From Gelidibacter algens (GTDB lineage: Bacteria > Bacteroidota > Bacteroidia > Flavobacteriales > Flavobacteriaceae), in the NCBI RefSeq assembly GCF_001678675.1, contig NZ_LZRN01000010.1, forward strand, positions 1 to 64,000: DNA of 64,000 nucleotides. The letters are read 5' to 3'. Position 1 is the first letter of the stretch. Each line of letters begins with the position of its first letter. Shown piece by piece: positions 56,776 through 64,000 of this stretch. The notes below the pieces were generated by a model that saw only the letters and a list, made by a program, of their open reading frames with translations, did no database searches and was not told where the DNA came from. The position numbers and the translations under genes were made by a program.

Positions 56776-57777
56776 TTATTCTTGAAGTACCAATGTCACG
56801 AACATTGGGAAGTGATCAGAGCCTATTTTTGATAAGCGCTCTAAAGCTTTTAAGCGGAATTCTTTGGTCACGAAAACGTGGTCCAGAGGCCATCGCATAA
56901 AAATATTATTTGCATTAAAACTGTTATAGAATCCTCTTCCAACCCTAACATCATAAAGTAGGTTCTCAGTTAATGTCAATGCATCAACATGGGACCAAAC
57001 CACGTCATTCATATCGCCAGCAACTATAGTAGGGTATGTTCTACCTGAAACCTTGTCACCTAATATTTTCATGGCACTTTCCTGCTGACCTTCATTATCG
57101 GGTAAATCTTCAAAATGTGTCGGTGGAACAGGGTGCAAGGCATGGAAGCTGATTTTCTGACCATTGGGAAGACTAACGGTACTTTCAAAAGAAGGAACTT
57201 TTCTATTGTTCAAATAACTAACATCCGACGATTCCAACGGAAACTTACTGTAAAGTACCATTCCATAGGTGACATCATTGATGGCCTTTATTGAATAAGG
57301 ATACTCATCTTTAAAAGATTCGAACTGTTTAGACCACCACTCATTGACTTCCATGCCCAAGATCAAATCAGGTTTTTTGAGTTCAATGAGGTTGATTAAC
57401 GGTTGTGCCTGATTGTTTGACATTTTTACATTGATCAATAAGAGTCGCAACTGACTACCAGAAGCAAAAGTGTCTTTTGCTGCAGATACTTCTACAGAAA
57501 CTAGCGGGGTATAATTAATTAAATACGAACCGTTTACGATCAATCCAATCAACAGTCCACTCAAGACCAAATAGCCGTACCAAAACCATTTTTTAGTCAC
57601 TATTATGAGCAAAACTAAGCTAAGGACAGAAGTTATGAAAAATTGAATTCTCATAAAATCGAGCATTTTCAAATAGCGACTTTCGGTATCTCTAAAAATT
57701 GAAAGTATTGAACCTATTGCCAAAATTCCTGCAATAAAACAAAGTATGATGTAAAGTATCTTTCTGGTTTTTTCCAT
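56776..57777 (-). CDS. membrane-anchored endonuclease/exonuclease/phosphatase family protein
   Basis: 333 residues. Three membrane helices in the first 90 residues (ILYIILCFIAGILAIGSILS, IQFFITSVLSLVLLIIV, GYLVLSGLLIGLIVNGSYL), then an EEP domain with LLLINVKMSNNQ (Asn), LILGMEVNEWW (Glu), FHALHPVPPTH (His), VAGDMNDVVWSHV (Asp/Asn), PLDHVFVT and GSDHFPMFV. It probably cleaves a phosphodiester such as a lipid, nucleotide or DNA on the outer face of the membrane; the substrate is unknown. Confidence 0.92.
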   Translation of the reverse strand: MEKTRKILYIILCFIAGILAIGSILSIFRDTESRYLKMLDFMRIQFFITSVLSLVLLIIVTKKWFWYGYLVLSGLLIGLIVNGSYLINYTPLVSVEVSAAKDTFASGSQLRLLLINVKMSNNQAQPLINLIELKKPDLILGMEVNEWWSKQFESFKDEYPYSIKAINDVTYGMVLYSKFPLESSDVSYLNNRKVPSFESTVSLPNGQKISFHALHPVPPTHFEDLPDNEGQQESAMKILGDKVSGRTYPTIVAGDMNDVVWSHVDALTLTENLLYDVRVGRGFYNSFNANNIFMRWPLDHVFVTKEFRLKALERLSKIGSDHFPMFVTLVLQE

Positions 57778-61355: not shown

Positions 61356-61937
61356 ATGATTGAAGGAAATGAATACAGCTTTGATTTTCTTAGAATATTA
61401 TTTGGGGATTTCAGTCTCATGATTTACGTAGAAATTATATGTCGTGTTGTCATAATCATGAGTTATACTATGCTATTAATTAAGTGGATAGGTAAGCGAG
61501 CAGTAGGTAACTTGGGCAGCGCAGATATTTTATTGATTGTGGCAATGGGAAGTGCTGTTGGTGATGCGATGTTTTATCCTACAATTCCTCTCGCTGTCGC
61601 CCTTACGGTGATAAGTCTGGTTGCTGCATTTCAAAAATTAGTGGTCGATTTACAGATAAAATATGAAAGCGTCAGGAAATTAACTCATCTACCCACTACC
61701 AAATTGGTCGAAAACGGGAAACTGCTCAAAGAAAACTTTCCAGCTGCCGATATAGATAATGAAGATGTGCTGATGCTTTTGAGACAATCTGGTATCAGGG
61801 ATCTGTCAGTAGTACAACATGCGTATTATGAGCGATCAGGAGCTTTGAGTATTTTCAAATATGAAAATGGGAATCTCATAACCTCAATACTACCAGAAGA
61901 TATTGAAGACATTGATACATTTAGTAGTAAAAAATGA
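61356..61937 (+). CDS. DUF421 / YetF family membrane protein (second copy)
   Basis: 193 residues, three N-terminal membrane helices (IYVEIICRVVIIMSYTMLLI, the SADILLIVAMGSAVGDAMFY region and ALTVISLVAAFQ) with the DUF421 motif WIGKRAVGNLGSADILLIVA, then a soluble domain (THLPTTKLVENGKLLKENF, LRQSGIRDLSVVQHAYYERS). Like the one at 44466 it is a short variant. Function unclear; expected at the cytoplasmic membrane. Confidence 0.87.
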   Translation: MIEGNEYSFDFLRILFGDFSLMIYVEIICRVVIIMSYTMLLIKWIGKRAVGNLGSADILLIVAMGSAVGDAMFYPTIPLAVALTVISLVAAFQKLVVDLQIKYESVRKLTHLPTTKLVENGKLLKENFPAADIDNEDVLMLLRQSGIRDLSVVQHAYYERSGALSIFKYENGNLITSILPEDIEDIDTFSSKK

Positions 61938-62006: not shown

Positions 62007-63611
62007 TTATTTTAGTCTTCTAAAAAGTGACAGTTCCCTGATGACCGCACGGCTTTCAAACCCTCCGGCCAACGCACCAGTAGTGACACCCACGGTACTA
62101 ATAAAGGACGCAAGGCGTATCAAATCGGTCAAATTAACGGCCTGCTTGTTTAGGGTGGGCCAAGTTTGGATCAAGTCTGAAGGAAACACATAGAGTTCCA
62201 TAAACAACATAAGCAGTCCAACCATTAAGTAAAGTCCAATACACGCTAAAAATATGCTGAGATAAATAGTTGTATTTGCTACGGCAAGATGCTCAGTCAA
62301 TATTCTTTTTTCTTTCCGTGGTAAAAAAAGAGACTGGATGGTAACAAGATAAAAACTGGCCCCCATAATGCTCATGATGGCAAACAGGATGGCCACAGAA
62401 TTGGGCATATTGATCCCAACATCCCAGATCTCTGCAGTAAATAATAAGATAAATGAAGGACTGACGGCTGCGGTGACCAGCTTTGGAAGCGATAGAGGCA
62501 GTAAAATCGCCTTATTTCTTAACAAAGGCCTGAGAAGTTGTTTGGGATGGCGAAAAGCCATTAATAGGTGAAACATGAAACTCTCCAACCCACTGCCGCC
62601 CCGCAACTCCCGTTCAGGCAATTGCTGTTTTTCTTTTTGCAACTGGTCTTTTTCTGCCTGTGTAAAAATAGGCACCGCTTTACGATCTGATAAAAATTCA
62701 TATGGGGACATGACTTTAGAATGGCCTTTATTTGTGTGGCTAAGTCCCACAATATCTCCAACCAGGTGCAACAATAGCGCAGCGGCATTAAACCTTACTG
62801 ATGCATCATTCAATGAAAGCATCGGCTGTTTTCTCCCTGTGGTCACCAGCTTTCGTGTGGAGATCATTGCAATACGGGCCACGCTGGATAGGAAGCCGGC
62901 ATCCACTCGGTTTTTTACAGTTGCCAAGGCTACATCTGTAATAACCAACATCATGTCATACGGGCCTTCGGCCATTCGCAAGCTGGTGTCATCCAGAAAG
63001 TCAGAAGGCCTTCTAGCTTTGTCAGTGGCCAACTGTGACGGGTCAGTGATGTCGAAACTCCACGGGATGCCTGTAGCGTCCTGTAAGGGAGTTTGCACAT
63101 CTGATATCAACTGTTCAGCAAACAGTCTCAAGTCTTCTTTTATTTCCTTTCTACTATATTCAATCAAGATCCCGATATTCATTTCAGGCTCTGGTTGCGG
63201 ACCTTTCGCTTTTTTTAAGGCTGTTAAAAATCTTCTTCCAGAGGTTAAGGAGCGGACAACGTTTGTGGATGAAATGAAACTGGCCGATCTCAAAATGCGG
63301 ATGGCGTTCAATAACCGAAACACTCTGAAGGCGGGGATTATTAATGCGACTAGCGTAATCCAGTTTTGTTTGATATAGGACCATTTGCTTGCTGCCAGAT
63401 AAAGTTTCAAAAGATATTCCAATATAAAAACGCCCCAGATAATGTAAAAAATGGTCCTCTCGATAGCGCCCAACCCTCGTACCAAATCTATAATAAGCAG
63501 GTATAGCCAACCGAGTGAAAGCAGGAACATTGGAATTTCAAGTCCGGACTCGAGCTTATACAAAGCCCTATACTTTTTGCGCTTATAGTAACTAGTGGAC
63601 GTTTTTGACAT
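62007..63611 (-). CDS. voltage-sensor-like / pseudo-metzincin membrane fusion protein
   Basis: 534 residues. Residues 1-130 resemble an ion-transport voltage sensor: four hydrophobic segments, the last with regular arginines (FRVFRLLNAIRILRSASF: R96, R99, R105, R108). Residues about 145-310 form a soluble domain with MLVITDVALATVKNRVDAGF, AMISTRKL and HLVGDIVGLSH (282-292) followed by MSPYEF: this lines up with the metzincin H-E-x-x-H-x-x-G-x-x-H and Met-turn, but Glu is Leu and the second His is Asp. The last 180 residues have four membrane helices. No pore domain is seen. Function unknown; likely a sensor without catalysis, if the reading is right. Confidence 0.75.
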   Translation of the reverse strand: MSKTSTSYYKRKKYRALYKLESGLEIPMFLLSLGWLYLLIIDLVRGLGAIERTIFYIIWGVFILEYLLKLYLAASKWSYIKQNWITLVALIIPAFRVFRLLNAIRILRSASFISSTNVVRSLTSGRRFLTALKKAKGPQPEPEMNIGILIEYSRKEIKEDLRLFAEQLISDVQTPLQDATGIPWSFDITDPSQLATDKARRPSDFLDDTSLRMAEGPYDMMLVITDVALATVKNRVDAGFLSSVARIAMISTRKLVTTGRKQPMLSLNDASVRFNAAALLLHLVGDIVGLSHTNKGHSKVMSPYEFLSDRKAVPIFTQAEKDQLQKEKQQLPERELRGGSGLESFMFHLLMAFRHPKQLLRPLLRNKAILLPLSLPKLVTAAVSPSFILLFTAEIWDVGINMPNSVAILFAIMSIMGASFYLVTIQSLFLPRKEKRILTEHLAVANTTIYLSIFLACIGLYLMVGLLMLFMELYVFPSDLIQTWPTLNKQAVNLTDLIRLASFISTVGVTTGALAGGFESRAVIRELSLFRRLK

Positions 63612-63803: not shown

Positions 63804-64000
63804 TTATTCGGTTACTGTTCCCCAGTTTTCGCCAGTTTTTATCCGATAAAGCTGCATCTCAGAAATCCCAAATTGTTTCGCAATCATTTTAAGTCGTGTT
63901 CTTCTATTAGGGTCATTTATTTTTCGTTTGAGCAGCCTGACTTTGCTTTCTGTAAGTTTTGCGTTCGTCCTTTTGAGGGGTCTATTAACATATGTTGGAT
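63804..64000 (-). CDS. helix-turn-helix protein, 5' part outside the window
   Basis: The minus strand is open from the window end to a stop at 63804 and reads NRPLKRTNAKLTESKVRLLK, then RKINDPNRRTRLKMIAKQFG and ISEMQLYRIKTGENWGTVTE. The AKLTExKVxxLK opening and the I-A-K-x-F-G-I-S-x-x-x-L-Y-R-I helix-turn-helix resemble the C-terminal DNA-binding tail of HNH homing-type endonucleases and related phage proteins. The start lies beyond 64000, so the rest of the protein is unseen. Confidence 0.6.
   Translation of the reverse strand, partial: PTYVNRPLKRTNAKLTESKVRLLKRKINDPNRRTRLKMIAKQFGISEMQLYRIKTGENWGTVTE

Follow-up and report, generated by a model that had tools for sequence, protein, structure and literature searches.

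What might a protein do that carries a voltage-sensor-like unit at its N terminus, a protease fold lacking its catalytic glutamate in the middle, and four more membrane helices at its C terminus? Such a protein is encoded in the first 64,000 nucleotides of contig NZ_LZRN01000010.1 of Gelidibacter algens (assembly GCF_001678675.1, a 4.5-Mb genome), the stretch that we analyzed and refer to as the window. An initial annotation, made from the sequence alone, had located the open reading frame and had pointed to an arginine-spaced S4-like helix, a degenerate zinc motif with a following Met-turn, and four C-terminal helices, and our analysis recovered each of these. The gene (62007–63611, minus strand) starts with ATG and encodes 534 amino acids in three parts: an S1–S4 unit, a pseudo-metzincin domain, and a four-helix membrane domain. 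We give a probability of roughly 45% to the interpretation that this is a pore-less protein of the voltage-sensor type, in which a channel-related S1–S4 unit, a pseudo-protease, and the four-helix domain act together as a voltage transducer.

The N-terminal S1–S4 unit

Hydropathy and homology place the voltage-sensor-like unit in residues 1–136 (63204–63611, minus strand), with S1 at about residues 26–44, S2 at 52–72, S3 at 84–94, and S4 at 95–112 (63276–63329, minus strand). The S4-like segment, 92-IPAFRVFRLLNAIRILRSASF, has arginines at positions 96, 99, 105, and 108 of the window protein, in keeping with the spacing of one arginine at every third position. R96, R99, and R105, as well as R120, are kept in all 16 intact fused proteins; position 108 is Arg in 10 of them and position 111 in 12, the latter being Ser in the window's clade of four. 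The S2 segment of voltage sensors has a charge-transfer aromatic residue and a Glu in the pattern FxxE, and F62 and E65 are invariant in the 16 fused proteins, as is K69.

The comparison with ion channels that the initial annotation had suggested gave a profile match between the N terminus and the S1–S4 units of voltage-gated channels. When the 16 N termini (alignment A9) were compared with ten channels (A8) by hhalign, the match extended across S1–S4 (98.3%, E 1.6e-14), a value that is not independent, as the A8 channels, like the archaemetzincins of alignment A10, had been retrieved through searches with this family. BLASTP of the window N terminus against one channel, L010, gave E 4e-21. 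In a PDB profile search with A9, from which L010 was left out, all 11 matches at E ≤ 1 were voltage-gated channels, as were all 18 matches in an earlier search with an N-terminal profile that included L010. Pfam Ion_trans matched 15 of the 16 fused N termini at E ≤ 1 (best E 3.8e-6); on the window protein, Pfam gave only sub-threshold matches, to Ion_trans and MC6, and neither an NCBIfam match nor, by single-sequence search, a PDB match was found. These comparisons support the view that the N terminus is an S1–S4 unit belonging to the voltage-gated channel superfamily and that its S4 is arginine-spaced. The type is rare in the phylum, occurring at E 1e-10 in 2 of 296 genomes, the window's own and that of L010.

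No S5-P-S6 pore follows S4; the metzincin domain comes next, and neither the middle part (0.2%) nor the C-terminal part (0.8%) matched the channel profiles. Membership among the ion channels was rejected for lack of this pore. The closest S1–S4 units that we compared belong to six-helix ion transporters and are 36–41% identical to the window N terminus (L010, 36% over 121 residues; L106 from Kovacikia, 41% over 109; L107 from Sinorhizobium, 37% over 133). These three proteins have a pore after S4, with TTIGSDFWP or TTMGSDYFP at the place of the filter, whereas the fused protein has the pseudo-metzincin and four other helices. A related channel gene on a Nostoc azollae plasmid (L108, 2483–3247) is split into two open reading frames and is perhaps a pseudogene.

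The pseudo-metzincin and four-helix domains

Residues 137–335 (62607–63203, minus strand) have a metzincin fold with a Met-turn. Archaemetzincins (peptidase M54, AmzA; PDB 2X7M, 4AXQ, and 3LMC) are the best matches of this part by structure and by sequence profile, and they account for its top four PDB profile matches. In the motif HLVGDIVGLSH (residues 282–292; 62736–62768, minus strand), the position of the catalytic Glu (283) is Leu and that of the second His (286) is Asp; the Met-turn methionine is Met301 (62709–62711, minus strand). Measured against the full motif HEXXHXXGXXH, the Glu is absent from all 16 fused proteins, which have Leu (11), Gln (4), or Met (1) in its place, and from 32 of the 33 family rows, while His282 is retained in 31 and Met301 in 32 of these rows. 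The fold, the profile matches, and the missing Glu bear out the earlier suggestion of a dead archaemetzincin-type domain: sequence and models support a soluble domain of metzincin fold that is related to archaemetzincins and has lost the catalytic Glu. The search for relatives with an intact HExxH, which had also been proposed, yielded one, L008 (1489–2700). This protein has no sensor and retains HELGHLNGLGH, a complete HExxHxxGxxH, and alone among the 33 family rows it might still be a protease.

The remaining zinc ligands differ between clades. All four members of the window's clade (the window protein, L028, L029, and L045) have Asp or Glu in place of the second His; at the third His position they have His, His, Arg, and Ser, which makes it doubtful that these proteins bind zinc. 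In the 12 fused rows outside this clade, the second His is kept in 12 and the third in 9, and all three zinc-ligand histidines are retained in 9.

Membership in the archaemetzincins was rejected on the Glu motif, the Cys motif, and the profile scores. Archaemetzincins carry four cysteines in the motif HCX4CXMX17CXXC, according to PMC3427221, and no Cys was found at residues 282–335 in any of the 16 fused rows; in a comparison by eye, all four were present in eight of nine archaemetzincin rows of A10 and three in L098. NF033823 (cut-off 145) did not match the window protein, and among six members the best score was 51.4 (L008), with L002 at 25 bits. NF033824 (cut-off 250 bits) likewise gave no match to the window protein and 13.6 bits for L002, and the two members with a Pfam M54 match scored below the Pfam cut-off. 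Unlike archaemetzincins, the fused protein is membrane bound and lacks the HExxH Glu and the Cys4 zinc-finger motif, and members examined singly fall far below the NCBIfam cut-off. A published precedent is CarG of Myxococcus xanthus, which, as described in PMC8156234 and PMC3427221, has Gln in place of Glu, no protease activity, and a role in a regulatory complex. CarG and the fused protein both have the catalytic Glu replaced, and in CarG the fold is put to non-proteolytic regulatory use, whereas CarG differs in possessing the Cys motif and in forming a pair with CarD (PMC8156234). Four fused members have Gln at the Glu position, as CarG does, and NF033824, which describes a non-proteolytic archaemetzincin-like protein, is probably the CarG model.

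The C-terminal part comprises residues 336–534 (62010–62606, minus strand). Hydropathy averaged across 18 rows and two AlphaFold models concur on four helices, at about residues 376–396, 404–425, 440–474, and 494–516, as had been claimed. This is the best conserved part of the protein, with a mean column identity of 77% (18 rows) compared with 61% for S1–S4 (16 rows) and 61% for the metzincin domain (18 rows). Of the 33 rows, 30 have Glu394 (2 more have Asp there), 32 each have Trp396, Glu440, and Trp484, and all 33 have Gly512. The isolated AlphaFold 2 (AF2) model of the domain had a predicted local distance difference test score (pLDDT) of 82.6 and a predicted template modelling score of 0.80, and no solved structure in the PDB matched it. 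In L012 and L013, a DUF2391 match just above the Pfam cut-off falls on the four-helix domain, at about residues 268–350.

By the positive-inside rule, loops rich in positive charge lie in the cytosol. The family-average charges are positive before S1 (+2.4), between S2 and S3 (+2.5), before TM5 (+3.4), between TM6 and TM7 (+1.7), and after TM8 (+0.9), and they are near zero or negative between S1 and S2 (-0.2), TM5 and TM6 (+0.1), and TM7 and TM8 (-1.9). On balance, the loop charges predict that the pseudo-metzincin is cytosolic.

Distribution and descent of the fused gene

None of eight other species of the genus carried a match to the fused gene, and one of 97 other genomes in the same search did. 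In the family, 4 of 397 genomes matched: the window's own, two with near-full-length relatives (one of which, L003, has an in-frame stop), and one with a potassium channel that matched in S1–S4 only. A profile search of the phylum matched 22 of 395 genomes, 2 over the full length, 8 in the metzincin and/or four-helix parts (proteins of about 390–420 amino acids), and 12 in the N terminus only. A scan of a species-genome collection yielded 19 loci out of 119 pattern matches; because both patterns were drawn from the C-terminal half, the scan would miss relatives that have a different C terminus. Seventeen of the 19 loci, two of them with an interrupted copy, have the parts in the same order. 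When profiles of non-matching parts were compared, the probabilities were 0.2–0.8%, and together these results argue that the architecture is not due to chance. Besides the window gene, there are 15 uninterrupted fused genes, from 14 named or metagenome-assembled genome (MAG) assemblies. The translation of L002 agrees with that of L030 (Planktosalinus lacus).

The S1–S4 part is absent from the other two loci, L044 (an Armatimonadota MAG) and L046 (a Gemmatimonadota MAG), which are 52% and 46% identical to the window protein outside S1–S4. A search of 151 genomes from the phylum of L044 revealed sensor-less relatives in two, one being L044's own, and such relatives were also found in four others of 185 genomes from the class of a gammaproteobacterial MAG, L103 being very diverged. 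Among 200 genomes from the phylum of L046, a full match was confined to the genome that carries L046 itself; 39 further matches were weak, with E values from 2.3e-6 to 9.8e-4, and most of them were short. Of four inspected by eye, L067 and L076 resembled ordinary archaemetzincins and L068 and L070 other zinc proteases.

In a tree of 33 rows (root not known), the 16 fused proteins lie on one side of a branch with support 99/98, and the same branch had support 96/98 in a 29-row tree from which four long or partial rows were removed. Because the fused proteins share one branch, the data are consistent with a fusion of S1–S4 to the rest that probably happened once. For six pairs of the window's clade, the ratio of nonsynonymous to synonymous substitution rates (dN/dS) was 0.055–0.096 over the whole gene, with synonymous distances near saturation in several pairs. 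By part, it was 0.026–0.080 for the four-helix domain, the lowest in each of the six pairs, 0.072–0.128 for the metzincin domain, and 0.058–0.125 for S1–S4. The fused gene is under purifying selection. The three clade relatives are 86–87% identical to the window protein and come from genomes that bear the labels Marivirga, Cryomorpha, and Aequorivita; since these represent three families, horizontal transfer of the fused gene is likely. Aequorivita lipolytica has two copies on one contig (L041, 5962–7604; L045, 6001–7605), one intact and the other broken by stops and a frame change.

Possible working, alternatives, and neighbouring genes

How could such a protein work? Fusion would have brought together an S1–S4 unit, akin to the one in a bacterial six-helix channel, and a protein that combined the pseudo-protease with the four-helix domain. 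A change in membrane potential would move the S4 arginines, and the linker after S4 would act on the cytoplasmic pseudo-metzincin. This domain, unable to cut, would serve as a transducer or a module that binds partners, much as CarG is used in Myxococcus. The four-helix domain, the probable output, would then change its state, and its role might lie in transport, channel activity, or partner recruitment, a step at which we can only guess.

Several points weigh against a voltage transducer. Voltage sensors usually have an acidic residue, aspartate, in S3, and the invariant Thr86 (16/16) stands at the expected place, as located by alignment; within S4, the window protein has Asn at position 102. 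Some channels that lack voltage gating have S1–S4 units as well. The window protein falls below the Ion_trans cut-off of 25 bits (17.7 for the whole protein, 20 for residues 1–136), and the independent PDB searches were weaker than the hhalign comparisons (best E 0.0056 for the N terminus and 7.2e-6 for the metzincin part). The metzincin fold and the S4-like membrane helix, on which the initial annotation had staked its proposal, were both found, the helix by homology: residues 95–124 have a pLDDT under 50 in the AlphaFold model, so a packed S4 rests on homology instead of structure. The S3–S4 loop has a charge of +1.0 (R96 counted) and the S4-to-metzincin linker just +0.2, and no relative of the output domain is known.

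It is quite conceivable that S1–S4 is an anchor or assembly module that senses no voltage, and that the pseudo-metzincin senses zinc, a peptide, or osmotic or cold stress, or acts as a scaffold. Thr86 and Asn102 are in keeping with this alternative, as are the sensor-less relatives, the three zinc-ligand histidines retained in most fused rows outside the window's clade, and the YetF genes that recur near the loci (see below). However, the invariance of R96, R99, R105, F62, E65, and K69 exceeds what an anchor needs. A voltage- or proton-controlled conductance, with the four-helix domain as a pore or carrier gated by the two preceding domains, is unlikely, for all that the strong conservation of this domain and of Glu394 and Glu440 favors it. 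We consider it most improbable that the protein is an active, unusual metalloprotease controlled by its membrane part: the metzincin fold is intact and the sensor-less L008 keeps its motif, but no fused protein has the catalytic Glu and the second His is replaced throughout the window's clade.

Should the fused protein be a voltage transducer, it would allow direct voltage signaling in bacteria without ion conduction or channel opening, and the family makes testable whether bacteria signal membrane voltage by means other than ion flow. According to a 2023 review (PMC10377628), the known, database-checked prokaryotic voltage-sensing domains all come with a K-, Na-, or Ca-selective pore. In voltage-sensing phosphatases, a voltage sensor serves an enzyme (PMC13095418), and in Ci-VSP, Hv1, TMEM266, and the sperm Na/H exchanger what the sensor serves is not a classical pore (PMC13095418 and PMC10377628). 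In contrast to these eukaryotic proteins, the fused protein is prokaryotic, its cytosolic fold is that of a dead protease, and a second membrane domain follows. Classification as a voltage-sensing phosphatase was rejected, the cytosolic domain being a metzincin fold without the catalytic Glu. In the literature listings that we examined, no description of an architecture of S1–S4, pseudo-metzincin, and four-helix domain was found; the parts are known, and their combination and bacterial use appear to be new. We tentatively suggest that this may be the first prokaryotic pore-less voltage-sensor protein, a counterpart of the voltage-sensing phosphatases in which the potential would be passed through a dead protease fold to a four-helix domain of new fold. 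With this family, the pseudo-archaemetzincins gain a membrane-bound branch in addition to CarG, and a conserved membrane domain comes to light for which we found no relative of solved structure.

A gene of the Exo_endo_phos (EEP) family, membrane anchored, lies at 56776–57777 (minus strand; Pfam E 1.3e-24). Of 20 loci, 6 are flanked by EEP genes with hydrophobic N termini, in differing orientations (the window; L029, 9084–10079; L031, 7636–8640; L036, 10233–11234; L042, 7599–8609; L043, 4791–5822), the nearest being 26 bp from the fused gene (L042), and in 10 of 16 genomes no EEP gene is next door. From copy numbers, about 0.01 adjacent genes were expected per genome compared with 6 observed; the binomial probability is 7e-9 (6/16 genomes) to 2e-8 (6/18 loci), for a family noticed before the test, in related genomes, and with a copy-number profile built from the neighbors themselves. 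The EEP protein is a possible functional partner of the fused protein, and we regard it as a lead.

A DUF421/YetF gene lies next door at 61356–61937 (plus strand; Pfam E 3e-13), and YetF genes occur near 4 of 20 loci, the other three identified by Pfam (L029, 8371–8901; L041, 3053–3577; L042, 3222–3752). On the Sinorhizobium plasmid, a YetF gene (L107, 1799–2305) precedes the related six-helix ion transporter. Directly upstream of the fused gene is a NUMOD4/HNH endonuclease gene (L109, 2805–3353; from window position 63804 into the next bases; Pfam E 5e-7), which may hint at mobility.
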